A DNA stretch of 64,000 nt from Entophlyctis helioformis (GCA_025526915.1 JAHLKH010000037.1:62001-126000); one strand, 5' to 3'. Numbered from the stretch's first letter, positions 34,034 to 62,785 are shown. The notes: generated by a model from the letters alone, not told the origin. A program made the numbers and translations.

Positions 34034-34887
34034 GCTGGTATCAGAGGCTGTATGGATGGATGTGCTGTGGATACGAGCTGGACTTGGACAGGCGATGGCG
34101 GGATTTGCGGCTTGAGTGGCTGTGGCTGTCGTGGAAGAGCGCGACGGACAGCCAGACGAGGGCGTACGAGACGGCAGAAGGAGCGAAAGGGATTGCTCTG
34201 GACAATGCAGCTGGGAGCGAGTGCAAGAACGGGTAGAGCGGCGGCACGACAACGAGAGCGAAGAGATGCGCGACGATCGAGAGGATGGCAAGAGCAGATT
34301 GACAGGCAGACTTCTTTTTGAAGAGGGGCTGCCAAGTGATGATGATGATGATGCGGATGCCGGCGCAGAGAGGGTCTGGCAAGACTGTGCCTGAACCAAG
34401 ATCAGACAGAGAGGAGGCCGAGATCGTGTGAAGAATGAGGCGGATGGTGCTGTCGGCGTGCACGTCAAACTATGCGATGGCGTTGGTGCGATTGCAGGCG
34501 TTGCTTGTCCTAGAAATGAGGTCGATTCGTGATGAGGTCGGCAAGCAATCAGCGTGAGGCGGCGTGGGAAAGCGGCGCTTGACAGGCGGGTTGCTTCAAG
34601 CGACGGCCTCACCATTCTTATAGGCAACCCTTGACGGCGCATTCCCACAGTCTGTCAATGGCATGACGTGCGCGTCGAGCAACGTTGACATGGCCCGTGC
34701 GGTCGTCGACGCCATGAAGATTCCTGTCAACCCCTCGTCGCAAGTATGACAAGCAGCGATCCAGCAACGAGTTGTGCGACATGATGACGGCAGGCAAAAG
34801 TGCCATGCAAGTAGGCATGAGGTGAGTGCGGCACTGTCATGGACAGCAGCAGAGGATTACACCGACCTTTGCCACGATATCCGTCAA
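34034..34887. other. Divergent intergenic region, HTH gene / CFAP221
   Basis: About 850 bases between two divergent starts. An open frame continues on the minus strand to 34648 (possible N-terminal extension of the HTH protein). A short ATG frame near 34782 ends at a GTGAGT donor and could be a 5' non-coding exon of CFAP221. Neither is firm. Confidence 0.4.
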
Positions 34888-37800
34888 ATGTCGTTGGCAA
34901 TCGAGCCGCCATACCTTCACTTTGCATTCAATTCAGTCGTGGATGTGGGCGACGATACCAAGAGCAGCTCGTCGAGTGCAGCCAACAGCAACGTCCAGAC
35001 CAGCGCTGTCAAGAGTGCTGGTCAAGTGCAGGCGCAGACACAGACGCAGACGCAAGCGAGCCCAGGCAGCAACGGCGCTCTCCGCGGCTCTTTGAGTGAA
35101 TCGAACAATCACAACCTCGGCACACGAAGCGACGCGTCAACGGCAGAGGCGGACAAGGCCAACAGCAGCTACAATGTCAAGTCCAGCCAGCGTGGCAGCG
35201 GCACAGTTACAGAAGCCGCAGCAGACGAGCTGGTTGCGGCCGATGCGGCAGCTACGGCTGCTGACCCTTCAAATGCGGCTGCAGAACCTGCTTCAGAGCC
35301 TGCTTCAGAACCTGCTCAGGAAGCATCGGCTCCAGCATCAGCTCCTATTGTGGCACCGTCGGCCATTGCCTCCTCAAGCCCAAAGACGACGCCTTCCAAT
35401 GGTGCCGCATACTTGCCTGGGTCCAGCCACGCGCACACAGCAGTAGCAAGAGCCGGCCAGACCACAGCAGCCACCGAAAAGTTTAGTCGCGGTGTGCTCC
35501 GATCGCCAGCCATGCAAAGCGGCGCTGAGGCAGGCGACATGTTTGACGACGACGAGCTGACGCCTTCTCCGCCGCGCGTCACGTTCCGCAAGACGCTCAA
35601 AGTTCGGAACACTGGAACGGAGCGCACTCGTCTTCAGTTCCGGCCACTGCCCTCTGAAAGCGGGTTTCGGCTGATCGCGCACAAGAAGGGGTACATCTAT
35701 CCCGGCGAGTACGAGACGGTTGAGATTGAGTTTACGCCGCAGAGCTGGGAGCACGTGCAGGAGACGCTCTTTGTGTCGTCGAGCATTGCACCCATGGCTC
35801 GTGTCGAGCTTCACGGTAAGCCACTCGATCGCAGTGCATACCTGCCCGGCAAACGTCCAGCGACTCTTGGCTGATCGCATGCCTGTTTGGCATGACCGGC
35901 CATTGCCATCAACGACAGGATTTCCGGCACTGCTTAACATGCGCTTACCACCGCGGCTTGTGTTTGGTGCTCAGACGCTCTTTCAAAGACGGTCCAAGAC
36001 AATCATGCTCAAAAACGACACATTTGTCGACTTTGAGTACCAGGTGACTGTCGTGGAAGAGCAGCCGCCAAACTGCTTTGGCATATGGCCATCGGACGGT
36101 AATCATGATTGCGCGTCACTCGCATCATGCCTGCCGGGCAGCACTGACGATTGCCTTTATCCTGGCGTGTTTAGGTGTGCTGAGAGCCAATGCAAACACG
36201 CCCGTGACAATCACGTTCATGCCGCTTACGCTGTGCAAAGCGTACATGGTCATGTCTGTCAAGACAAACCAGTTTGGGTTTGTGCCTCTTCAGTGCCGTG
36301 TGACAGGCACAGGCGAGCTGTTCCCGCCAAGGTTGGTTTTCCACCAGAGATGCAAATGCATGGATGTCGGCCTTGCCTGACGAGATCTGGCATGGAATAT
36401 GCACCAGAGTCGGTGGCCAGCCTGCGGATACAGTGAATCCTGGCGGACTAGATGAGAATGCGGTCGAGGGGCGGCTAGAGGCGCATGCGAGTGCTGATCA
36501 GCTCAGATCGGTGGAGTCATCACCGTCACCCTTTCGTGTTGGAGCCATAGCAGCAGGAGCAGCAGCAGCAGCAGAGCAATCTGCTGTGCAACCTGGAGGA
36601 TCGCGAGACCTGGCATCTGTGCGATCAGCCGCACAGTCGCAGCAACCGCCATCCATATCGTCATCACCCCTGCCGCTTGTACCTGTCGCAATATCCAAGC
36701 AGTCGCCTGCGGAAGAGTCGGACAAGGTGCGCGGCAAGAAAGCATCATCCACCGCAGCAGTGGCGGTGGAAGTTCTCCATGATCCGCTGCATTCGACAGA
36801 CTTTGAAGAGCAGCTCCAAGCGCGAGTTGAGTGCATATGGCTGGCTGGCATTACTGTATCCAATCTCTGGCGTAATTCTCAGTCACTCACTCGCGTTGCT
36901 CGATGCAATGATGACCGCTGCAGATGGACTTGCTGCGCCGCAAAGACCTGTGCCGCTTTGTATGCATCGGTGAAGATGCGCAGCTAGAATCGCAAAGTTC
37001 AGAGCCAGGAGCAGGATCTTTGGCTTCGGCATCAGACGCACCAGTGGCCCATCTCCAGAATGGAAAGCAGCAGTTAGACGCGTGCGTTGCATGGACACCG
37101 CCAACGGTGACGACTGCAAGCCAGGTGCGAATCAAGGTGCCCGAGCTAGAGTCCCGGCAGCCACCGATGCCAGTTCCGACGGAGCGGCCCGATCAGCGGC
37201 TAAGTCGCCTGTTTGTACGAGCCGGCTGGACAGTCATTTACCGCCTCCGTGCATCACGACGCCTTCAGCACCTTAAATCGTCGGGCGGCATGGAGCGGCC
37301 ACCAACCAAGAGCCAGTCCAAGCCGGCCGTGTCGTATCTCAACCAGCGTCTTGCGCGCGCCAAGCCAGTTAGCGGCGAGCCCCAAGACTACCGATATGCA
37401 CCCAGTAAAACGTACGAGACGCCGATGGTGGATATTCTGTCGTTTGCACGCCCAATGCCTGTCGATCTCGTAACGCCGTCATACGCCGAGCGGATGGGGT
37501 ACAAACCCATCAAGCATGTACCCGAAAGCACGACCATCAAGATCGAGCTGCCTGGCATCTCGTTTGACGAGCCCAGTGGTGAGTGGGTTTGTGTTGGGTC
37601 TACACAATGTGCGACGTGCAATTCACATGATGGGATCCAAGCTGGCAAGCAGCAGGTCAAGGAAGAACGCGCAAGCATAAAGATGATCCATGTGGCTGAT
37701 CCACCGCTTGCGTCCATTTTTGTAAGTAGGGGTCTGGTCCTTGGCAACGGCAGGCACCAAAGTGGTGCATGTGTGCTGACCGGGCAATTGGCGTGGATGA

Positions 37801-47932: not shown

Positions 47933-48059
47933 GGCCGATTTATTGGTAAAGTTTCAACCTGATATTCATACAATTACCAAGCGTTTTGGAATTAAATTCG
48001 ACCCGAGAGGCGTCGAAAAGATGCCCGTGTATCACACGATGGAAGGTTCGAGTCAGCAA

Positions 48060-48215
48060 TGAGCATGCGACGATAGGTGGGCGAGGCATACCAACGAGAT
48101 GCTCACCTTGCACCATTGTTTGAACAATGATGTGATAAGTGACCCGTTAGGTCGATCGGGAGGTGCCCCGATTCAAATAGTTGGTAGACGTAGAAGTCAG
48201 AGTGCCAAAGGCTTG
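48060..48215 (-). ncRNA. Candidate Fanzor guide RNA (omega/fRNA-like) region: three hairpins after the stop
   Basis: Directly 3' of the Fanzor stop, within 140 bases on the same strand, are three consecutive potential stem-loops: 48154-48173 (ATCGGG/CCCGAT, 6-nt loop), 48114-48129 (CATTGTT/AACAATG, a tight 7-bp stem) and 48076-48107 (GGTGGGC/GCTCACC with one G-T pair). TnpB and Fanzor guide RNAs are known to be encoded at or overlapping the 3' end of the nuclease gene and to be strongly folded. Position and structure fit, but no RNA evidence is available and the guide boundary cannot be set. The region is less GC-rich than its flanks. Confidence 0.45.
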
Positions 48216-51200
48216 TCATGCGAGACAACACATGGCTGGCAACCAGGCTTGGGCACGACTTGCACGCCGCTGGATGGCAGTATGCATTGCCTTGATGTCT
48301 GCAAGGTGCTCTGGCATGGCTGGATCGTCACTGGCTGGCGTGTGCGTCAAGTAGAGCGGACGGTGTCCAAAGAGCAGATGCCACAGTGCGACCATTCCGA
48401 TGTTGGTGGCTCCAAGCACGTCGCGGTGGTAGACGGTCGTGCATGGTATGCACTCGTAGCGTCGCAGGTTGGTGCGGTTCTCGTATGGGATGCGCTGCTT
48501 GCACTGCGGGCACATCTGGCTGGTCAGGTTCTCGTTGCAGCGGTAGATCTGTGTGTGTGTGTGTGTGTGTGCATGATCGTGTGTCAGTTGGTGCACAGAT
48601 GGATAGATGGATGGCATGGCATCAGACGCACATAGGCATATCCAGACGACCGCAGATGCCTGATGAGAAACTTCTCAAACACAGCGTGCCGACCACCTTG
48701 GCCTGTAAAGTCGATGCCAAATGCCCAGACAACGGGAATGTCCTTCTCTGTGTTGCCGACAGGGAGGCCTTGAGATGCAGCAGATGCGCGCTTGCCAGTG
48801 GTCGATCCTGCCAGCTTCATGATGCCCTCAAGAGCGTTTCCGCGAATTGACATGCTGTTGCTGTGCTTGGTGAACCGCTTGGCCTTGACCTTCTGTGGAA
48901 TGCCATGCCATGCCATGCCATCCAGTGTGATCAGCAGGCGATCAAGCAGCATGGCGGCCATGTCAATGGGCATCCAGAAGCAGAGAAAACGTACCCGTGC
49001 ATTCAGGAATGGCGTGCAGTACGCATGGCAGCGCAGATCCCAAAAGGCTCTCTCGCCTGCTGAGACGCCTGGGTCGGCATGCTTTGCTGTCTTGAATGCA
49101 ATGGCTGCCTGGACGTCAGCAGCCTTGGCAAGTCGGTCAGCAAACCTGGCACAAGAGGCAGGCACTGTGAGTTGATCTGGTCAAGAGTGCGCGTGGCAGA
49201 GTCATTGCATGCATACCAGTCCTGAAAGATGCGCTCAGCATGTGCCATGCCAGAGGAGAGCACGTAGTTGGACTCGAGCTTATACGAAAAGTCTCTGAGA
49301 TCGACCAAGATGCTGGACGCGCCATACAGGTACCGCTGGCCCCAATCAATGCCAACAATCCGCACAAACCGGTAGCCCTTGTTGGTGAACAACTTGTTGG
49401 CTTTGATGATGTCGCGCAGTCGCTGCGAGGCGTAAAAGTTGTGCTGGGCCTGTCATGCCATGGCATGAGTGAGGAATGCACAATGCATGTGCACCAATGC
49501 GCGAGTTTAGCATGCAAGTGGCTTACAGGATTGGTCGCTTTTGGCTTGGCGGCTGTGGATGGCATGTCAGTCGGTGCTGGTGCCAAGTGTGCGTCATAAT
49601 GGCACAGCAACTCACATGTGCCATCCATGTGATCATGCCCATCATGCCCATCATCATCAGAATCAGAATCATCATCATCAACAACCCACGGCTGCTGGCC
49701 TGAAGACACCAGATTGGAGCATGCAGATCAAGGCGGCAGTCAGAATCAATGTGTGCACCAAAGCATCCAAGCACGCCACATACACCAAGGTGACTCTGGA
49801 CGGTCTGTGCAGCCATCGAGAGCCAGTTGAAAGATGCTGTATCCATCCGTCCTGACGCTGCCTGTCAGGATTGCCTTGGCCCGTTTTGCTCGACGTGCCG
49901 CATCAATCGCAGCCTTGATATGCTTCTCACGCTCCTTGCCAATCAGACCCTGCTTGTCGGCCTCTTGCGTCGCCTTGGCTGTGGCCTTGGCAACCGCGTC
50001 CATCTCCACAAGAGTACCAACTCTGACCTTGATATGCTCCTCGCGCTCCTTGCCAACCAGACCCTGCTCGTCAGCCTCTTGCGTCGCCTTGGCTGTGGCC
50101 TTGGCAGCCGCGTCCATCTCATCTTTGGCTTGTGCAGGTGTCTGGAAGCAACCTTTCTTGGGGCGGAGGCCGGGAAGCAGGACGTCGAGAACACAGAGCT
50201 CTTGGCTTGCACTGAATGCGTCTTGGATCTTGCTATTGGGCGTCTTAAGCTCCAAGTCTTCATCTTTGTAGTCTTGGATAAAAGTGCAGTGTCAGCATCA
50301 TATCATACAAGCATGGCATAAACAAGTGCGACCTACTGAGTGCATCCAGAAGCTCCAGTCTCAAGTCTTTCAAAGCATCACTCTGCTTGCCATTCTTGCA
50401 CTCATCCGTGGTCCCCATTACCGCCCAAAAGAGGGTGGCCTCGGTAATGAGGATGAATGGGTCGCGGCTCGCCGCCTCAGGGCACAACTTGATTGTTGTG
50501 CCAACAGCAAGCTTGCACAGCTCGTAAAAGATCCTGATCTCTGAGAGTGACGCATTGCTCAAGATCGGCACAAGCACGTGCAATGCTTGCGGGATTGTAT
50601 CAAGACCGCCGTTGTCTGTGGCTGGCAGCATGCTGGGTGTCGCGGCCGCAGTGGTGGCCTTGTCCCTCCTGCGCCGTTGCCTCTTGGGTTTGGTGCTGTT
50701 GGTGGCTGATGAAGAGGTGGACCGGTCGTGCTTGAGACCCGAGGCAGGAGGGGCAGCGTCTTGAGCAGCGTCTAGTGAGGCGTCCTCAGTGGCCGGTGGT
50801 GTGGTTGATGCTGGCCCTTTGCGCCTTTGTTTCTTGCGCGTCGGTGGGCTTGGTGTGGCGACCTCGGCAGCAGTGCGTTTGGCATCCTCGGCGGCGGCAT
50901 GCTTGGCATCCTCGGCAGCCTTCTTAATGATCCCGATCCATCTGTCAACATCCTTGGCAGACGCACCCTGCACCAGGCTGTGAGCTGCATCAACCAACAG
51001 CTTGGACTGGTTGGTCATAAAATGGGTGGCCAGCATGCGGCCGACGTCGCGTGCAAGGTTGGTGTAGATGTTGTGCCTTGCTTTTGCACAAAGGCTGCTA
51101 TCAAGCCTGTAGGGCAGGACAGCCTCCAAAGTGTCCGTATGCACAGCGTCTGCCGTCGGTGCACTCTTCTGCATCAAGGCAGACAGCTTTGCATTCGCCT

Positions 51201-52095
51201 GCTCCACAGTTGACTTGAACTTATTGGCCTTGGTTGTCGCTGTCTGCTGCATGCGTGCTGTCCATGAGATTGACTTCCGTGTGCCTGCTTTCCACGTCGC
51301 TGCTTGCCGTGTGGTTTTCTGTGCTGTGGATGCCTGCTGTGTCGCGTCCACCTGCTCTGCCTTCCGTCTCCATGTCCGATGTATGATCAGCTGCATCACG
51401 GTGACGATCCAGCAGTGGACAGGGTACTTGATCGCATGCGGCTGGACCATCTTATCATCCGCCATGATGTATCCAATGTGATATAGCAGCATCTCCAAAG
51501 CACCCTCGCCACCAGACGTGCTGCTGGTGAGCGCCGTGAGCAGCTCATTTGCAGTTGGGACTGCTGGCGGCTGGGCGGCTGGCAATGATGCGCCGGCGCT
51601 GCTGGCTGCTGTTGCTGCTGTTGCTGCCACAGTCTGCGATGCATTTGCAAAGGTGCAGATCTCAAGCACCGTGCCATGCTCGAGAGGCACCAAACTGCCA
51701 TAGCGAGGGATCTTCATGTCGCTGCTATGTGGTCCTGTGCCATACATCAACCATGCATCGATGCGCTTTTCGAGGATGCACCTGCCCGTTGTCTGCATCG
51801 TGCCCTTGCCCTCGCCGAGGTCGTCTGGGTTGATGTAGTAGTATGTTTTCACACTGCCACTAGTGACTTGCATCATGCAGTAGTCAGGTGGCAGTGGCGC
51901 GTCTGGGCTGAGCTTGACAAGAACCTCGACTATCGCGCCGATCAACGCGAGGACAGCACACAAGAGGCCGGCTGTGTAATCGTACACCGTCAGGAGGGCG
52001 TCCTTTCTGACTGAAATGGCCGTCTGCTTGGCCAGTGGTGTCTTGGTATGGGTCCCAAAATACTTTGTATACTCTGGCTTGTTTGACAGCATCTC
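48216..52095 (-). CDS. Fanzor (eukaryotic TnpB-like RNA-guided nuclease) module, 8 exons
   Basis: Exons 52095-50337, 50272-49784, 49699-49616, 49552-49527, 49449-49217, 49145-48995, 48892-48632, 48548-48216 join in phase into ~1,110 residues. Numbering follows the full fused frame that starts at 61185. RuvC-I is VRIVGIDWGQRYLYGAS (Asp ~1637). The penultimate exon has AFGIDFTGQGGRHAVFEKFL. The last exon has NENLTSQMCPQC (Glu ~1823), a zinc ribbon (C1830, C1833, C1850, C1853) and HRDVLGATNI (Asp ~1860). Upstream is the ILTGSVRTDGYSIF segment seen in Fanzors. The large first exon is helical with two basic NLS-like clusters (RKKQRRKG, KPKRQRRRRDK). No stop or frameshift seen; nuclease residues look complete. 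It has no start codon of its own that I trust: its frame continues 5' into the XPG module. Confidence 0.85.
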
Positions 52096-54753
52096 CTGCT
52101 CATTTCACGAGTGCACCAGTCAGCCTCACAACACCAAGCATCCAGAGCAACATGGCAACCAAACCCCATACCGCCAGATCCACAATCATAACACGGCTGT
52201 TATGCTGTGCCTCATCCTCATCCTCATCCTTGCCCTTGCGCTTGCTCTTGCTCTTGCTCTTGCTCTTGCTGTTGATCTTGTCCTCATCCTTGTACTTTGG
52301 TGCTTTGCGATGATGCTGCACGTTTTTCTGACTGTCTGGTGTTTTGACTTTGAGGACCCCATTGACTGTCTGGACTGGCCCTGATGTCACGCAGCAATTG
52401 CCCGCAACATCCAGATGTGTCGCCCATCTATCATGATATTCGTGTCTACCAGCAGAATCCATGTCAGCAAGCACGATCAGGGCTCGCAGCATGCCATCTG
52501 CCACTTACGTGCTTGTCGTTGTTGGAGATGGGGCCTTCCGGTGGCGTCGCCCTGACTTCTTCTTGTTTTTCTTGATGGTATTCTTGGTCGCAGCCTTCTC
52601 AGCTCGCTCGGCATTCTCCTTTGCATGTGCAGCCTCTGTCTCCTCTGAGAATTGGAATGGCGCCTGCCGTGGTTGGATGCAGCATCAGGCATCCCTTCCT
52701 TGTGCACGCAACACAGTCACAATCACCAACAGTGCCCTGTAACCTACCGTCGTATTAGTGTCATCAAGTACACCAACGAGAAGTTTCTTACGGTTTGCTT
52801 GTTCAGGGCGATCGTTGTCAGATGACTTGGGCAGCGGTGGAGGAGGACCAGCCTGAGGAGTGGAATGATCAGCAATCGTGCCAAATCAGTACAGGCACAC
52901 ACCATCAGTGGAAGATGAGACGCACAGCGGCTTGCTCAATGACTTTCTGCAGCAGGGCAATGGCCGTTTGCCGCTGATTGACGAGTGTGATTGAATTGCC
53001 CTTGCTGATACGTCGATTCTTGAGGCCATTCAAGTCATTCAGCAGGTTTGTGGCCTCATCATGGATAACTGCAAACGTGTCTGCCGGCGCCACTCTTGTG
53101 CTGATCCGTCCGCGGTACTTGGTCTTCTTCTCGCCTGTATCTGCAATAGCACATTCAACAAAACGGCACTGTGAGTGGATTGCATCAACCATTTCAATGC
53201 AAGCAGAATATACTTGGAGTGGCTGTATGCCGGTGGGGGGCATTTTGTGGATGCACGATCTCATCCAGCTGCTTCTTCATTCTTGGAGCAACAGTCTGTC
53301 CAGGAGCAATGGATCGAGTCAGTCACATTCAAGATCAACAACCGTGTGTGATGCAAGAGCAACGGCATGCATCCAAGCCATGCAGCAACTTACAAAAGCA
53401 TGCCAAATCATCTGATCCGCCTTACTGAGCACCATGTAATCATCTGGCTCGATAGACTGCTCGCGCACAATCTGCAGCAACTGTGCACTAGCCGCCCTGC
53501 AGATGGCTGCAAGGATGTCACGGCTAGTGACTCCATCATACTTGCTTGCAAGGAGATCAACTGTTTGCTCTATGATGGCGTCCAATGCCACGTGGCAGCC
53601 ATTGACCTCCTTGAATGCCACATCCAGCCGCCTGCTGGCAACAATCCCATTGGCAAGCTGTTTGACACGATCGCTCGTCAAGTGGACAGGTGGGACGCCA
53701 GTCTTGGCTTGCTGCTGCTGCTGCTGCGCGGTATGGATCAAACAGCAACCAGGCGATGAGCATCTGCACAATAACAAGATCGCAGCATCAGAAACAGGAA
53801 AGCCATGTCAGTTTTTCCAGAAACACCACAGATGGCATGCATGCATACTTGGCTCCAGCCGAGGCTGTCACTTTGACATACATGTGGTTGGCATTGCCTT
53901 GTTGAGGCCCAGATCTGTGCAAGGCATGCAATCATGTCAATGCCAATATGTCCATAATATCCTTCAAGAATAGACTTGCCTCGCGACAATCGGGGCTGCA
54001 AACGTGCCAACTGGCGCTTTGGGCTCGATTTGGTCAACAAAGACTGAGAATGCGTTCTTGAACATTGGTATGAGGCTCTTGTCATGACTCTTGGCCAAGT
54101 CCTTGATGTACGCGTCCCTGAGGTCATACATGAACACCTTGGCCTCTTCAGGAGTCTTGAGTTTTCTATAGAGCTCGGCCTCCTTGCCATCCAACTTGGC
54201 CGCCTTGCGATCAAACCACGCATTAATGAACTTGGCAGCGGCCGTGATCCCTGAAGGCAATACAAGCAGAATCGTGCATGAAGACAACAAATGGCATGTG
54301 AGTCATGACAGACAACAAAACAGGCGCAGCAACTCACCATGGCGATTGCGGCCAAAAAAGTCTGTATGAGAAAACACTGCAACACCCTGACATGCACCGC
54401 GAAAATCCCGCACGCCCAATGCAGACGCGGTTGAGGCCATACCGCCATGGTTATATGAGCGAGGCTGGTTAAACCGCCCATGCTGCAAGTGGGTCACAAC
54501 GACACCACATTGACCAGCACAATGAGCAACCAGATCAGAGTCATTGGAGACAACAACGATTGGCTTGTCACTGTCACAAAATGGAGACTGTGAGCCATCA
54601 GTCACGGCAGAATGATCCAAGGCAATGTTACCTTGGCTCGCGAACATGGCGGGCAATGCATACATCAGCCTCATAGTCACACCAACAGACCGTGCATCCC
54701 TTATTTTCGCCAACAAGCTCGTTGAGGGCCGCAACAATGTGCTGTTTGTCGCT

Positions 54754-54758
54754 CTGCG
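54754..54758. repeat. Target-site duplication, left copy (CTGCG)
   Basis: CTGCG directly left of the 5' LTR; identical to 60567-60571 right of the 3' LTR. Keeping one copy restores the reading frame of exon 2 of the interrupted host gene. Confidence 0.95.
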
Positions 54759-55001
54759 TGTAACAGTCAGCCGCGATCACGTGACACGCGTGCAACCGGT
54801 CGCGCGTCCCACTTGAATCCTGACAGACCACAAGGCGACTTGCCCCAATCGTCGCCTTGTGTACTGAAACCCGCCGTCTGTCAGGTACTGCCCGTGCATA
54901 TGCCTTTATTACTACGAAGCTATACCAATGAATATCCTTGTGTACTGAAACCCGCCGTCTGTCAGACCGCCCATCGTCTCGTTGCACATCGTCCTGTTGC
55001 A
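54759..55001 (+). repeat. 5' LTR (243 bp, TGTAACA...TGTTGCA)
   Basis: Starts TG and ends CA. Same as the 3' LTR except one A/G difference (CCCCAATCG here) and an extra 81-bp block after GTCTGTCAG. The block ends in a second copy of a 30-bp segment (from CCTTGTGTACTGAAACCCG), so the LTR contains an internal direct repeat around AT-richer sequence. Confidence 0.95.
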
Positions 55002-55037
55002 CGACGACTCAAGACAGTCAGTGACCAGACGGAAGGA

Positions 55038-56690
55038 ATGACGACCGACAGCCTCAGTGCCGAGGGCACTGGTGCGGTCGGAGCAGGCAGCAGCATTGAA
55101 CAGCAACACCAGCAACACCAGCAAAACCAGACCGGCCTGCCAACACCCGTCACTGTCGTCCGCACTGTCACCAACTACCGCCTTGGCTCGAGCCTGGCAG
55201 AGGCGGCCATGAGGCTGCTCTTGAAGAGACCTGAGTTGATGGCCGAGATGCGAGACGCGGTGCCTGAGGGCGGCAGCCTGCTGCAGGATGGAGACATCCA
55301 ACCGGTCGCGGATTATGGGTCGCTCCTCGCCGCGCTGGGACATCGGGATTCTGCCATCCAGGATGAGGCGGCCTCGGTAGCAAGCTTGCAGTCGGTTCAC
55401 TCCTCAAGCGCCCAGTTCAACTCAGCGGTGTTTGCTGCTCACTCGTCTCTGGCTCGAGCACCCGCACCGTCGCGATCGCAATCCATCAGCATCAGTCAGC
55501 ACGGCACGATGGATCTACCGACGCCAGCGGCAGCCTCCGATGCCGCGCTGTTCCGCGCGCGGCAGACGGAGGCCGAGAATGACTTGAAGGAGCTCAGGTT
55601 CGACGGCGACCCAGCGGCCGATCCGCTGGGCAACGCCCGGGCCTGGCAAGTATTCACCCGCGCCCTGGAGAGCAGCATGGGCATTTGCCCGGCGCTCTAC
55701 AGGGAGGAACCTGTTCGCATTCGCATGTTAGAACGCTGCTTGAGGGGCTCTGCCCGAGAGTGGTTCTCCAACACTGTGATGCCGCGTGTCCAGGCGCGAG
55801 AGCTGCGTTCATTGGCCCAGGTCATTGAGGTGGGCAACCGCAGATACCGTCCGGCGCATCTCATCCAGCGTGCACAGCTCGTCATCGATCGTTTTATACC
55901 CGCACCTGGCGAGGCGTGTGCCCAGTGGGGCGATCGTCTCACGGCCCTGCAACGCGACGCCGACGCCTCGGACGCCGCGATGATCAAGAAGGCGTACTCG
56001 CTGTGCTCACAGGAGCTGAAGGCACGGATCGACATCTTGGAGGGTCCGGACGGTCTCGACGGCCCACAGACGTTTGCAGAATACCTGGAGCTGATCGAGA
56101 AGCTCGACGCCAACATGCGGTCCAAGGCCGAGTATGCCCAGGCGGCGGTTTTGACGGCCGCGGCACTCAATGGCACCCTGTCGACGCCATCTGCCAATGT
56201 GGGCTCAGGATCGGCTTCTGGAAGTGGACGCCGTCGCACGCAGACGGCTCCTGCACCGGCCAGAACGCCGCCGGCTCCAGTGACGATCCCAGCAGCGCCG
56301 AGGACGCAATCCGTGTCAGCCCCAGCAAACAGCGCCGGCCTGGCCAGCGAGTGGCAGGCGGTGATGTTGCGCGTTGGTCGACCGCTCTCAGAGGCGGACC
56401 GCGAGTTCCTGAAGGCCAACCACGGCTGCTACGCCTGCCGCCGACCCGATCACGCATCCATCAGGAACCCGGCATGCCCATTCCACCGCAGCGGCGGTGC
56501 ACCAGTCGCAGTCGCCAGTGTGGCCCCCCTAGTGATCATGGTTCGGGAACAGCTGACAATACATCTGTTACCCACTGCTCGTCTTTGCCCATGCCGCCGG
56601 TCCGCTCGCCTATCCGATCGCATGTCATGGCAACCGCCGATGGGTTCCCGTGCGTGGCCCTGCTGGACACCGGCGCATCTGGTATGGTGA
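55038..56690 (+). CDS. gag: Retrotransposon Gag
   Basis: 550 codons from the ATG at 55038. The N-terminus is Gln/Ser-rich. The capsid-like core runs from ~residue 180 ([50 protein letters not shown]), the usual gypsy retrotransposon Gag pattern. A degenerate zinc knuckle is near the end ([17 protein letters not shown]). Past a CCCCCC run at ~56525 the protease continues in the -1 frame, consistent with a programmed -1 shift or a single-base change. Confidence 0.85.
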
Positions 56691-59600
56691 TGTCGCGCAG
56701 TTTCGCGCGTCGGATTGGTGCACAGACCTGCGCCATTGAGCCGTTCACGGTCGAGTATGCCAACCAGGAGTGCCATCGCGTTGCGGAAGCGGTGACCATT
56801 ACCCTTGCGGTTGGGGACTACGCGCAGCAGCTGCAGTTCTTTGTCGCGGACATCAGCACCGATGTGATCCTGGGTACGCCGTGGTTTGCTGAGGTGGTGA
56901 TCACCAAGGGCGATATGGCCGACCGCTCGTTTGCATTCCACCACAAGGCCATGGGGCGCGATTTTGTATGGCATCTGCACCCCTCAGCGGCACCCACACT
57001 TGACCCGACACCCGAACCTGAACCGACACCCGAACCAGTACCCGAACCCGCATCCGAACCAGTACCCGAACCCGCATCCGAACCAGTACCCGAACCAGCA
57101 CCCGAACCAGTACCCGAACCAGCACCCGAACCAGCACCCGAACCACCCTGCGATCATGCTCCGATGTCCCTTGAGGCCATTGCTGCGCAGCATGGCATTG
57201 AGTTCGTCAGCTACGAGGATTTCCATGCGGACGAGTCATCATATGTCGAGATCATGGCCCTGACCAGCTGTGGGGACGCAGATACGGCAACCGACGCGGC
57301 CATTGCGGCGATTGACGAGGCGGATCCACTCGCCCATCTGAGCCTGGAGACGCAGCCGAGGTGGTCCATCCGCTGTTGATCCAGTTCCAGGACCTCTTCC
57401 AACCGGGCAACCTGCCGCCGTCGCGGCCTGAGGATCATTGCATCAAGTTGGTGCCTGGTTCCAAGCCGCCGCCACGCCGCCCTACGCGCAGCCTGCCGAC
57501 TGAGCACCAGGATGCTGTCAAGGCGTTCTTGGACGACCTTGCCGCGCGTGGCATGATCCGCGGCTCTGTGTCGCCGTTTGCTGCGGGTATCGTGATCGCC
57601 AAGAAGAAGGACGGCGGTCTGCGTCTGTGCATTGACTATCGTGGGTTGAACAACATCACGGTCAAGGATCACGCGTCGATGCCCAGTATCCAGTCGCTCA
57701 TTGACCGCGTGCGGGCAAGCCGTTCATGTCGTCGGTTGATCTGCGGGACGGCTACTACAACATCCGCATCTACGACGAAGACATCCCCAAGACGGCGTTT
57801 GTGACCCGTTACGGCCACTACGAGTTCAAGGTGATGCCTTTTGGGCTCTGCAACGCTCCGCCACCTTCAACGCCATGATGAACCGCATCTTCCACGACCT
57901 GCTGGACGTCTACGTTGTCGCCTACATGGACGACATCCTGATCTACTCGGAGACCGAGGCAGACCACCTGCTGCACCTGGAGGAAGTGTTCCGTCGTCTG
58001 CGCGCTGAATCGCTCCGCCTGAAGATGTCCAAGTGCGAGTTCTTCTCGTCGCGGCTCGAGTTCTGCGGTCATCTGTTGCTGGGTGACGGCTACTCGATCC
58101 AGGACAAGCATCGGCTGGCACTGAAGACTCGGCCGATCATTGGGTCGGTTGGCGATCTGCGACGCTTCATTGGGCAAGTCGTGTGGGTCAAGGATTTCAT
58201 CAAAGACCACGCCGACATCTGTGTGCCGCTCACAGACATGCTGCGCAAGGACGTGCCCTTTGTGATGGACGAGGCCAAGTGGGCCATTGTGGACTTTATT
58301 CTGGACGCCATCACGAACGCTCCGGTGCTCAAGTACTTTGACCCGTCGCTGGAGACGCACGTGTACACGGACGCATCCGAGTTTGCCATTGGGGCTGGGT
58401 TGGCCAGAAGCATGTCGATGCGGACGGCACGGCCAAGATCCATCCGGTCTCGTTCTACTCGCGCAAGCTCAACGATGCGGAACGCAACTACCCGACCCAC
58501 GAGCGCGAGATGCTGGCGATCGTGGACACCTGCGACAAGTACCGGCACTACCTGCTCAGCGTGCATTTCACCATCCACACCGACCATGCATCGCTGCGCT
58601 GGATCTCGACGCAGCCCAAGCTGTCGTACCGCCAGGCTCGCTGGATCATGGAGCTGCAAGAGTTTGATGCTGTGGTCCAGTACATCCAGGGGGGCGACAA
58701 CAACCTGGCTGACATGCTGTCGCGCCATGTGACTGTTGCTCCACACTGCGCTCGATGCCGTGCAAAGGTTGAAGTGGATGCCTTGACCACCGCAACACCC
58801 GACATTGCCGACCGCGTTCGCCCGCTGTTGCTGCCGACCCGTTCCTGCTCAACGTCGCTCGCTGGAAGGCCGATCCTGCTGATGCTGCTCTGCACGAGCG
58901 TCAGTTGGCCGCCAAGCTCGAGCTGGTCGACGGCCTGTGGTTCTACGAGGGTCGCATGTACATCCCGGAGGGTCAAGTGCGCACCGACCTGCTCACCTCG
59001 TACCACGAGCCGGCCCATGCGGCCACCAGGGCCGCGAACGAACACACGGCCGTCTGCGTGCGCACTACTACTGGCCGGACATGGCTGCGTCGGTCGGCCG
59101 CTTTGTGGGCTCGTGCGACGCCTGCCAGCGGTTCAACTCGTCGACGCAGGCGCCTGCCGGTCTGCTGCACCCGCTGCCCATCCCTGCCGACCGCTTCCAG
59201 TCTGTGGCGTGCGACATTGCCTTCATGCCCATGTCGGACGAGGGCAACGATGCTGTGTTTGTTGTTGTGGATCGCCTGACAAAGCTTGTCAAGTGCGTGC
59301 CGACGCGACGCGATGCGACTGCCGAGGATCTTGCCGCGCTGTTCCTCAACCGATGGGTGCTTGCTGGCCACGGCCTGCCGTCGTCTATCGTCTCGGACCG
59401 GACGCTCGCTTCCTGTCTGCCTTCTGGACGGCGCTCTGTGCGGCGCTGGACATTGAGCAAGTCATGGCAACGGCCCGCCACCAGGAGACCGACGGCCAGT
59501 CCGAACGCACCATCCGCACGCTCAAGGACCTGCTGTCCAAGTACGCCAACCACCGCGGCAGCAACTGGGAGCACATGCTCGATGCGGCTGTCCACGCCCT

Positions 59601-60462
59601 CAACTCTGCTCCAAGCGCATCGACTGGCTATGCTCCGTACTTCCTCGCCTTTGGCCTCGAGCCTCGCACGCTGCCACACGAGCCGGCAGCATCGTCACCG
59701 CCTGCTGTCCACGACCTGCTCGCTGCCATTGACAAGGCTCGCGTGGATGCCACAGCCAACCTGACCAAGGCTCAAGAACGACAGAAGTGCAACGCCGATC
59801 GCCACCGCCGTGATGCTCCTGCCTACGCTGTCGGCGACATGGTCATGCTGCAAGCCGCCGGCATTGTGTGGCCCACCGACACGCATCGCCCCAATGCGTT
59901 CCTGCCCAACTGGCTGGGTCCATTCCCGATCACAGAGGTCAATGCCGCACTGGATGGTCTCAACTGCAAGCTAGCTCTGCATCCAACCATGCATCGTCTG
60001 CATCCGTGGTTCCACGTCCGTCTGCTGAAGCCGTACCGCGATCCGGCCGCTGCTTTCCCTGGCCGGCCACTGCCTGCTCAGCCACCTGCAGTTGCCTTTG
60101 CTGATGACCCGGCAGCAGCTGAATGGGAGATTGACGCGATTGTTGGACACAAGGTCGCTCGCAACGGCCACCGCTCCTTTGTGGTCTCGTACCTCGGTTA
60201 CGGCCCGCAACACAACGAGTACCGCTCAGAGGCCGAGTTGCGCGAGACTGCACCTGATCTGCTGGACCAGTACCTCGCTGCCCTCCCAGCACAGCCGCCG
60301 GTCCATCGCAGCCGCCGCCACGCTGGGGATGCATTGGACGTGAATGTGGCTTCCTTCTTTGTCTGTGCCGATTGTTCTCCAGAGGATCCCTCGTCAAGGG
60401 GGGCTGTAACAGTCAGCCGCGATCACGTGACACGCGTGCAACCGGTCGCGCGTCCCACTTGA
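56531..60462 (+). pseudogene. pol: Retrotransposon pol (PR-RT-RH-IN-chromodomain), frameshifted
   Basis: Protease has the active site ALLDTGASG; a Pro-Glu repeat ([11 protein letters not shown]) separates it from RT. RT shows [30 protein letters not shown] and AYMDDILIYSE; RNase H shows VYTDASEFAIGAG and HTDHASLRW. Integrase has an HHCC-like start (HYYWPDMAASVG, SCDACQRFNS) and the DDE core (DRLTKLVKC, ARHQETDGQSERTIRTLK). The C-terminus has a chromodomain (EWEIDAIVGHKV, FVVSYLGYG). The frame is broken at about 57350, 57715, 57862, 58407, 58835, 59035 and 59397; most look like loss of one base in a short G or C run. The last frame runs into the 3' LTR. Confidence 0.9.
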
Positions 60463-60566
60463 ATCCTGACAGACCACAAGGCGACTTGCCCCAGTCGTCG
60501 CCTTGTGTACTGAAACCCGCCGTCTGTCAGACCGCCCATCGTCTCGTTGCACATCGTCCTGTTGCA
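60405..60566 (+). repeat. 3' LTR (162 bp)
   Basis: TGTAACA...TGTTGCA, identical to the 5' LTR apart from one substitution and absence of the 81-bp block. Preceded by the polypurine tract and followed by CTGCG. Confidence 0.95.
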
Positions 60567-60571
60567 CTGCG
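60567..60571. repeat. Target-site duplication, right copy (CTGCG)
   Basis: Matches 54754-54758. Together they define the empty site inside exon 2 of the minus-strand gene. Confidence 0.95.
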
Positions 60572-60987
60572 TCAATGTGAAAAATCGGCCGAGAGCATGG
60601 GTCTCCTTTCTGAGTGACCAACAGCAGAAGATGGTTAGTAAGGCAGCCACACAGTAGAGAGTAGCAAACCTACTTGGTCATCAACCCAATCTGCTTGTAT
60701 TCTTGACGGCGGAACGCATACCGCAGGACCTTGACCGCTGCATGCAGCATCTTGAGTGCGCGGTGTCGGTGCTCGATCTTTATACCTGCGTCTCCAAGGC
60801 AACCATCGACGTGGAATTTGATGGTGTGGCCGTCGCCGACCGACGCCATGAACAGCTCGATGGCCGGCTTGACGATGGCCTTCCAGGCATCCTTGGAGTC
60901 GGGCAAGCTGAACGATGCTGTGGCAATGAGCTGCGAGTAGAATACGCTTAGCACGTCAATGTGTAACATGCTGCTGATGAAGTCGTC

Positions 60988-60990
60988 TGT

Positions 60991-61055
<65 letters not shown>

Positions 61056-61060
61056 TTGCT
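60988..61060. repeat. (GTTGCT)n hexanucleotide microsatellite in coding sequence
   Basis: About eleven copies of a hexamer in exon 1 of the XPG module, read on the minus strand as an alternating Ala-Thr tract. Length change is in units of two codons, so the frame is kept. Confidence 0.9.
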
Positions 61061-61185
61061 GGTCGCTGTTGCTGCAGTGTGCTGTGGACCACGTGCTGCA
61101 CGACCTGGCTGAGTGCTGTGCCAGCAATGTAGAGCCAGACGGCACAGCCTAGCTTGAGCATTCTCAAGTAGCCGCGGACCGTCAT

Positions 61186-62690
61186 GTTGCGTGGTGCTGG
61201 TGCGTGGGATGGGGCGTGTGTGTGTGTGTGTGAGTGTGTGTATCTGTTTGTTTGCGGGCAAACACGGCGCGTTCCAAAGTGGCGCGCTTTGATCAGATCT
61301 GATGGGCGGAGTTGAACTTTTCATTGCATGAAAACAGAGAGCGAGCCGATAGAGAGCGAGCATCCAGGCACTCGCCGTCCACTGCCCAACAGCCATCAAG
61401 GGAGCAACGAGCACAGCCAACAGCCAGGCATTCAAGATGCGGTTCTGTGTTGCTGGCACAGTCATTGATGAGATGCCACTCAGTGCGCAGCTTGACATGC
61501 ACTGTGCAGCATCACTCTGCGTGTCATGAGCTGCATTGCAGCGAGCCTCTCTCCGAGTAGCATCTTCTCAGTCAATGTCCCATTGCATCCAACAAGCGTC
61601 CTGATATGCATCTGCATTGTGACCCAGTGCGATGCAGTTGGTGTTGCCTGACTGGCCAGCTGGTCCATGGACAGGTTGGTTGTTGACGCACTGCCTGCAT
61701 CGCCCCTCTGCTCTGGATCGTCCTTGCCAACAAACACAGTGCATGCAAGACTTGGATAGTCAGGATCGTCGCCATCATCATCGTCGTTGTGGTTGTTGAA
61801 TGGATCGAGAGTGCTTGGTCTGTCTGTCTGGCCACTCCAGTTGCTGCTCAGTGGATCGCATCCAAGATGCCATCGCACCAAGTGCAATGTGGCCAGACAC
61901 GCCTGCCAGCACTCGCGTCCTCCTCACCAGTCTCGTCTGGATCAGTGTCGCCGAGTGTGCCGCTCGTTGAGTGTGCTGCCCCTGCCGAGTTTGGCGTCCA
62001 AGTCGGCATGCCAATCCAGCTGCCCAGCAAGCAGTTCCTGCAGCCAACTCCAAGGATCGGTCCATTGAGCACGTCTCAGTGGCTGCTCATCTGCTGCTGC
62101 TGCATCCCATGTCGCAGTCGGAAAGCACCAGGCAGCTCGGTCCTGCGATGCCAGTGCTCTCGCTGTCCTCTTGAACAACAACCAGATCGCCCTGTTCACG
62201 GCCGTCTTGCCAACGTCTCTTGTTGCTGTTTGGAGCCATCAGACATGCACGCAGTCAGTGCCAAGCCCACACAGACACGGCCGTCAGACTGCTGTGCCGT
62301 CGTCATCAAGTGGCAATGGAGCATGCCTGGACAGACAGCGAGTCAACGCACCTGCTCGCCTGTCTGCAGCCTGCCTTCTGTCCGCCCGCCTTGTTGGGCA
62401 CGCCTCTCAGACGGCCACGACCACGCTGCTCTGCTGGATGGCCTGCTGGACTGCCTGCTGCATGCCACCTTGAGCAGTGAGCCTCGCTGTCTCCCCTGAA
62501 GGACTCGGCCAGCAAGCGAGTGCTATCCCATATCCGTGCTGTCGCCTGCGTCGTCGTCGCTGTCGTTGGATTCGTTGTTGCTTGTGTGCAGTTGGGCGGC
62601 AAGTGCAGCAGCGTCTGGATCTGGCATGGCGCGTTGCTGCTGTGCTCGCATCGCGCAGTGTCTGCACCACGCAAGGGCTCTCTAGATCGG
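61186..62690. other. No confident gene; possible minus-strand exons
   Basis: 1.5 kb between the XPG start and the XDH promoter. It has a (GT)n run at ~61217-61245. On the minus strand several segments look coding but I could not link them: 62625-62527 (MPDPDAAALAAQLHTSNN), around 62230-62110 (SNKRRWQDGREQGDLVVVQE), around 62000-61915 and 61800-61510 (DPDYPSLACTVFVGKDD). Together they could be a small gene divergent from XDH, rich in Asp/Ser. Confidence 0.35.
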
Positions 62691-62740
62691 CCAATCACAG
62701 CGATTCCACCAGGATTGACCAATCACAGCGATTCCACCAG
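62691..62740. promoter_or_regulatory. Two perfect 22-bp repeats with CCAAT box upstream of XDH
   Basis: Copies at 62691-62712 and 62719-62740 begin CCAATCACAGCGATTCC and are identical; starts are 28 bp apart. They end 45 bases before the XDH ATG. CCAAT at this distance fits binding by a CCAAT-binding (HAP/NF-Y) complex, which is inference. Confidence 0.6.
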
Positions 62741-62785
62741 GGGTAATGGTATGAGAACTGGGCCCAGTTTCAACCTGATCGACAA

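Follow-up and report, generated by a model that had tools for sequence, protein, structure and literature searches.

The window analysed here is a 64,000-nucleotide stretch of the Entophlyctis helioformis genome (GCA_025526915.1, JAHLKH010000037.1:62001-126000), with positions counted from its first letter. It contains what is in all probability an interrupted copy of a terminal inverted repeat (TIR) transposon, whose sole recognised gene encodes an XPG/FEN1-type nuclease, a weakly conserved linker and a Fanzor-like nuclease in one fusion protein. The gene was rebuilt from the window as 19 minus-strand exons (61185-48216) totalling 5,784 nt, or 1,928 codons including the stop, and all intron borders are GT-AG or GC-AG except at an interruption of exon 2. 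This reproduced the exon number and the exact codon sum of an earlier annotation, the sequence-only reading. Its claim that the locus is readable as one 1,927-residue protein stands for the one-frame exon model, but a long terminal repeat (LTR) element breaks the window copy, leaving no working gene there. Likewise, the combined XPG and Fanzor gene is real, but it belongs to a multi-copy TIR transposon, missed by that reading, and is not a single-copy host gene. The features of the element are listed below; each exon rests on the exon model, with further evidence in brackets.

47958..62765, minus: TIR DNA transposon, window copy, 14.8 kb with a nested 5.8 kb LTR element (copy comparison)
62766..62773, minus: target site duplication TTGAAACT, left copy
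62742..62764, minus: left terminal inverted repeat GGCCCAGTTCTCATACCATTACC
62685..62741, minus: tandem units of ~27 bp, CCTGGTGGAATCGCTGTGATTGGTC.., at the left end, copy number differing among copies
60674..61185, minus: exon 1, start and XPG N-region with HID and HVDG (acidic residues)
60567..60609, minus: exon 2, portion ahead of the LTR insertion (uninterrupted in other copies)
54759..60566, plus: nested Ty3-type LTR retrotransposon, antisense to the gene (direct-repeat ends, domain matches)
54632..54753, minus: exon 2, portion past the LTR insertion, YEAD motif
54338..54570, minus: exon 3, NDSD motif (genome search with XPG exon 3)
53980..54250, minus: exon 4, end of the XPG module (profile comparison)
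53849..53914, minus: exon 5 (spliced alignment of copies)
53394..53763, minus: exon 6 (spliced alignment of copies)
53214..53295, minus: exon 7 (spliced alignment of copies)
52926..53140, minus: exon 8 (junction alignment)
52853..52925, minus: intron 8, module junction, donor GTGCGTCT, phase 0, containing an in-frame TGA (junction alignments)
52748..52852, minus: exon 9, linker (dN/dS and codon-position analysis)
52509..52663, minus: exon 10, linker (dN/dS)
52172..52445, minus: exon 11, linker (dN/dS)
50337..52095, minus: exon 12, start of the Fanzor-like part, putative WED/REC (predicted structure of a relative, P0001)
49784..50272, minus: exon 13 (profile comparison)
49616..49699, minus: exon 14
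49527..49552, minus: exon 15
49217..49449, minus: exon 16, RuvC-I GIDWG (motif alignment)
48995..49145, minus: exon 17
48632..48892, minus: exon 18, ahead of a second GTGCGTCT donor
48216..48548, minus: exon 19, shifted RuvC-II glutamate (ENLTSQMC), zinc ribbon, RuvC-III HRD and stop (Pfam, motif alignment)
47958..48177, minus: conserved non-coding 3' block reaching the right end, candidate guide-RNA (omega-RNA) scaffold
47958..47978, minus: right terminal inverted repeat GGTAATTGTATGAATATCAGG
47950..47957, minus: target site duplication TTGAAACT, right copy

The retrotransposon with a target duplication that had been claimed inside the gene was borne out: the LTR element in exon 2 carries aspartyl protease, reverse transcriptase, RNase H and chromodomain matches and is bordered by a duplication of 5-6 bp (CGCAG or ACGCAG). 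Exon 2 is uninterrupted in seven of eight copies by pattern query, and the eighth, L017, gave no pattern match but is insert-free by blast as well. Among the 20 copies first modelled, one, L019, is open across all 19 exons; it has no insertion and encodes 1,877 residues by spliced alignment, and the others are frameshifted, stop-bearing or shortened. The intron phases of L019 (2,2,1,2,2,0,1,0,0,2,0,1,1,1,0,2,0,0) equal those derived from the window exon lengths. The account of intron borders relies on those that the copies have in common, as the spliced aligner introduces spurious short introns and frameshifts where the sequence is of low complexity.

The C-terminal part of the L019 protein, used as a query, returned one relative, P0001, a protein of 1,131 residues on a 4.0 kb ENA contig that carries both modules. 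From P0001 we reached P0002, P0003, P0004 (Amoeboaphelidium occidentale), P0005 (Mortierella sp.) and P0006 (M. alpina), and the next round returned P0007 (13 member sequences, both domains over the cut-off), P0008, P0009, P0010 and P0011 (Benniella). P0002 has 1,281 residues on a 4.5 kb JGI contig and matches both XPG_I (E 1.5e-6) and the TNB zinc ribbon (E 2.9e-6) over the cut-offs; the little room left on their contigs suggests that P0001 and P0002 are unspliced open reading frames (ORFs). Both modules were detected by Pfam in eight of the 11 proteins (P0001, P0002, P0004-P0007, P0010 and P0011), which contradicts the possibility, raised in the sequence-only reading, that the homologues are always separate genes; the two-domain order, which it had proposed to look for in other chytrids, is present in annotated proteins of Mortierella, Benniella and Amoeboaphelidium. 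P0003 has no XPG match, and P0008 is partial and lay outside the Pfam scan. P0009 (Mortierella alpina, 788 aa) matches XPG_I over the cut-off without TNB and may be either an independent XPG protein or a fragment cut from a fusion by the gene model. Profile comparison of five own copies against six relatives aligned both modules in the same order, with 97.7 percent and an E-value of 1.8e-12 for the N-terminal part and 99.7 percent and 9.9e-27 for the C-terminal part. In addition, the NCBIfam models flap endonuclease-1 and guided_TnpB both match P0005, each under its curated cut-off. Relatives in viruses, prokaryotes and phages were searched for and none was confirmed.

The N-terminal part, about residues 1-380, is predicted to be an XPG/FEN1-type structure-specific nuclease. 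Seven acidic positions, which we take to match those of FEN1, are conserved, the first in 8/8 covering rows and the other six in 9/9. The front of the relatives' profile matches Exo1 (5.5e-13), FEN1, Rad2 and XPG chains in a PDB profile search; the structure comparison, which hardly probed the XPG part, gave no fold match for it, and the assignment comes from sequence.

From about residue 800 to its C-terminus, the protein is predicted to be a Fanzor/TnpB-like nuclease. The window exons match PF07282, the TNB zinc ribbon, with an E-value of 3.4e-9 and 37.2 bits (cut-off 26.3); the ribbon with the RuvC-III aspartate is the feature of the TnpB/Cas12f superfamily, and the RuvC D-E-D residues are conserved in the aligned rows. 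The Fanzor fingerprint is described as DPG in RuvC1 together with a glutamate six residues ahead of the zinc ribbon (passages of Yoon et al. 2023, PMC10711439). This shifted RuvC2 glutamate was found in 18/18 proteins or spliced models and in window exon 19, whereas DPG was found in 0/18, all of which have D-W/F/L-G. A predicted model of P0001, which is weak, has the WED/REC plus RuvC/TNB fold and matches the Spizellomyces Fanzor over residues 435-1098; its seven best Foldseek rows are all Fanzor entries (best E 1.7e-9). The end of the relatives' profile matches the TnpB-like L79 (1e-5), and LaTranC and G. theta Fanzor1 (0.028). Because DPG is absent though the shifted glutamate is present, we name this part Fanzor-like, and descent from another shifted-glutamate TnpB lineage is possible. 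Thus the glutamate and the fold of one relative uphold the label "Fanzor" given by the sequence-only reading, and the RuvC1 motif does not. Most zinc-ribbon cysteines are lost in P0001 (1045-1070) and P0002 (1177-1202), with the RuvC triad kept.

The ends of the element were defined by comparing copies from the source genome (29.6 Mb, 482 contigs). By blast against 20 copies, the 13 that reach the right end share a limit at window 47952-47961; the alignments of the remaining seven break off before it, where another insertion, a contig end or the limit of the extracted piece intervenes. The ends form an inverted repeat of ~21-23 bp, GGCCCGGTTCTCATACCATTACC on the left and GGTAATTGTATGAATATCGGGCC on the right. 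With at most two mismatches allowed, the genome has 91 sites for the 19-nt left-end core and 127 for the 21-nt right-end consensus, and each reversed control gave 0. At least 48 of the 91 left ends pair with a same-strand right end in the expected order within 26 kb, against three in the wrong order, the pairing having taken in 100 of the 127 right ends; 16 of the 48 pairs are spaced by 7.2-8.0 kb and 12 by 8.8-9.1 kb. Among 12 copies with both ends read, a direct repeat of 8-11 bp (mostly 8-9) lies beside both ends in eight (window, L017, L019, L020, L021, L022, L028 and L034) and is absent in four (L030, L031, L049 and L050); the repeats of L028 and L034 were judged by eye, and the left repeat of L028 is damaged. 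Of 101 hand-picked XPG exon 3 matches (the searches scored 150 of 205 and 150 of 317 candidates), at least 58 have a downstream PF07282 match in the same orientation no more than 14 kb away, most often (45 cases) at a distance of 5.8-6.3 kb, against 0/101 with PF07282 upstream and 4/101 on the opposite strand among the matches listed. The 7.2 kb elements L049 and L050 both carry the fusion gene, and an ORF listing of L049 revealed no recognisable second gene and no room for one.

Identity is unevenly distributed along the element. Ahead of the gene, the 1.3 kb at the left (window 62567-61305) are ~93% identical between subfamilies 1 and 2, far above the coding part. Exons 16-19 (window 49449-47958) of L019 are 80-88% identical to other subfamilies, compared with 49-73% in exons 1-8, and L021 and L026 fall into different subfamilies in two trees. 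The exon 16-19 identity and the regrouping of L021 and L026 may reflect gene conversion, or an exchange of modules, at the right end.

Between the stop codon and the right end lies a block of 189-221 nt that is conserved in 16 aligned copies (members of subfamilies 1 and 2 and of the 7.2 kb class, the extracted pieces of L047 and L048 ending short of it), even where the C-terminal codons differ. In SpuFz1 elements, the conserved stretch from the stop to the right repeat is described as being transcribed as the guide scaffold and running 14-15 nt into the flank (passages of PMC10432273), and the block here has the equivalent position. RNA analysis gave no support for a guide scaffold: the folding of three copies was no better than that of shuffled sequence, two-sided change was found in 2/50 pairs with an unfavourable covariation term, and no Rfam family matched. 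It is therefore the position of the block alone that suggests a guide function.

Profile searches of the genome for transposases gave 0 matches for MULE (PF10551), Transposase_mut (PF00872) and IS1595 (PF12762). KDZ transposase gave four matches at three loci, partly broken (C334:6404-7253, C271:9823-10062 and C396:222-449). It was rejected as a partner: at C334, the one locus of the three that was inspected (C334:500-9900, L051), the stretch around the gene has no matching TIRs, one left end lying farther along that contig. MuDR/MULE elements have TIRs and duplications of up to 10 bp as described in passages of PMC10045372 and PMC3627910, and the repeats of 8-11 bp shared in 8/12 copies are in keeping with this class; no MuDR/MULE transposase was found in the ORFs of L049, nor PF10551 or PF00872 in the genome. 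Rhizopus, Phycomyces and Mucor are described as harbouring Fanzor elements that have MuDR-like TIRs and 9-bp duplications but lack a transposase (passage of PMC3627910). Since such transposase-less elements are known from Mucoromycota, mobilisation in trans is the simplest reading.

The junction of the two modules could also be read as the border of two adjacent genes, the first coding for an XPG protein that stops at the TGA (52907-52905), the second, downstream, for a Fanzor-like protein of its own. We regard this as very improbable, although several observations count in its favour and thus against a single fusion gene. The TGA stands directly behind exon 8 in 20/20 aligned sequences of subfamilies 1 and 2, and the donor GTGCGT, kept in 19/20 of these (the exception is the open copy L019, with GTGCAT), is unusual. 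The linker is the least constrained part for most subfamily pairs: the ratio of nonsynonymous to synonymous substitution rates (dN/dS) between subfamilies is 0.46-0.62 for L028, L030, L031, L034, L047 and L048 and 0.72-0.75 for L049 and L050, compared with 0.25-0.38 in exons 1-4 where estimable (L047 and L048 excepted) and 0.35-0.44 in exons 12-13, and its third-position excess is small, indicating weak constraint. In comparisons with two close copies, L021 and L024, the linker values are 0.33 and 0.97, from few changes; wherever estimable, dN/dS is below 1. The XPG profile matches also tell against the fusion, as the window XPG piece alone scores below the Pfam cut-off, and E-values in the eight two-module relatives range from 0.067 to 1.5e-6, with two of eight over the cut-off of 24.9 bits (P0002, 28.9; P0007, 26.6). 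However, the junction acceptor is retained in the same 20/20 sequences, and in the more diverged copies L047-L050 GTGCGTCT is retained in 4/4 and the TGA is replaced by TGG. For L047 and L049 the aligner itself picked GTGCGTCT as a phase-0 donor; for L048 and L050 its donor lies 4 nt downstream, and the phase-0 reading of GTGCGTCT was assigned by hand. The identical donor recurs at exon 18/19, and each relative is annotated as one polypeptide, two of the contigs leaving at most 0.7 kb outside the coding length. Intron position and phase in diverged copies, together with the two-module relatives, therefore support the predicted architecture of the sequence-only reading, an XPG nuclease fronting a Fanzor-like nuclease in one polypeptide. 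Retention of intron 8 (52925-52853) would end translation at the TGA and yield an XPG-only product in subfamilies 1 and 2, a possible splice switch.

Within the fusion protein, the C-terminal RuvC enzyme may no longer be RNA-guided, its zinc ribbon and D-E-D residues serving structure- or sequence-directed cutting. The loss of most zinc cysteines in P0001 and P0002, an RuvC1 motif unlike that of Fanzors and a guide RNA that is only a candidate, from a 3' block without folding support, speak for this and against RNA guidance. We nevertheless think it unlikely, in view of the REC/WED-to-RuvC match to Fanzor1 in the weak model of a relative and of the conserved non-coding block at the right end, the site of the SpuFz1 guide RNA (passages of PMC10432273). 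Somewhat less likely still is that the fused protein is itself the transposase and moves the element by its own XPG and RuvC nucleases without a DDE enzyme. No other gene was recognised, and the gene nearly fills the 7.2 kb class (ORFs of L049); the MULE, Transposase_mut and IS1595 searches found nothing in the genome, and the L051 stretch around the KDZ gene has no matching ends. However, TIRs and fixed-length duplications are typical of DDE enzymes, transposase-less Fanzor elements are described in Rhizopus, Phycomyces and Mucor (passage of PMC3627910), and the searches were limited to the named superfamilies, the hAT search, which matched no control genome, being uninformative. The same low standing applies to a bolder proposal, a new TIR transposon superfamily in which an XPG-Fanzor-like protein, guided by right-end RNA, would cut target or donor, process the strands and spread without a DDE transposase.

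The element ends, the duplications, the exon structure, the conserved catalytic residues and the two-module order elsewhere are evident at the level of sequence. For the fusion protein carried by a TIR element that is mobilised in trans, we propose the following mechanism. A transcript of the 3' block would read through the right end into the flank and provide the guide. The RuvC module would then open and cut a matching empty or allelic site, and the tethered XPG module may act at the R-loop or break, trimming or cutting flaps and the displaced strand. Such flaps and borders of single- and double-stranded DNA would be the substrate of a structure-specific nuclease tethered to an R-loop-forming cutter. 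Processing by XPG might steer repair towards copying the element back or spreading it, and excision and insertion would most likely be carried out in trans by a DDE transposase. To judge from the literature passages, the Fanzors examined to date cut under RNA guidance and have no partner domain of this kind. That a flap/bubble-nuclease fusion is kept in several fungal and aphelid lineages suggests post-cut strand trimming, end processing and repair choice within one polypeptide. The fusion makes the role of a Fanzor for its transposon directly testable, and it offers a natural design for an editor coupling target opening with structure-specific strand removal.

Elsewhere in the window, a match to a HYDIN/CFA65-type Ig-like domain, a family known from flagellar proteins, lies at 34750-35871, in keeping with a zoosporic fungus. 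A plus-strand ORF from 62779 adjoins the transposon and by eye reads like the start of a xanthine dehydrogenase.

The predicted N-terminal nuclease shares with the FEN1/EXO1/XPG (Rad2) family the profile match from 5.5e-13 and the seven acidic positions, and differs by its fusion to a Fanzor-like part and its carriage on a transposon. Academ is a transposon lineage that combines an XPG nuclease with an Academ transposase; the literature search gave nothing usable on it. In the open literature, most subscription papers being outside that search, we found no description of an XPG-Fanzor fusion, and no co-mention of Fanzor with XPG or with Mortierella. A possible precedent, known by description only, is the "Fendons" of a preprint (PMC11071296), which names "candidate Fanzor flap endonuclease homologs" in two virus contigs; the passage concerned is silent on one protein with both modules. 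The MuDR-like Fanzor elements ROr-4, PBl-3 and MCi-4 (Bao and Jurka 2013, PMC3627910) likewise come from fungi, have TIRs and 9-bp duplications and carry no transposase gene; XPG is unmentioned in the main text of that paper, and the likeness is by description only. Fanzor1 (SpuFz1 of Spizellomyces punctatus, PpFz and GtFz1) has in common with the system described here the fold over ~660 residues of a relative, the glutamate six residues ahead of the zinc ribbon, a TIR element in a fungus and the conserved non-coding stretch from the stop to the right end; Ty3 insertions are reported in SpuFz loci as well (passages of PMC10432273). The two differ in RuvC1, with DPG there and D-Phi-G here, and in the target duplications, TA there and 8-11 bp here. 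The gene has 19 exons in this genome, and the fusion proteins reach 1,131-1,927 residues against 633 for SPu-1-1p (passages of PMC3627910), with an extra XPG/FEN1 nuclease and a linker in front of the Fanzor-like part.

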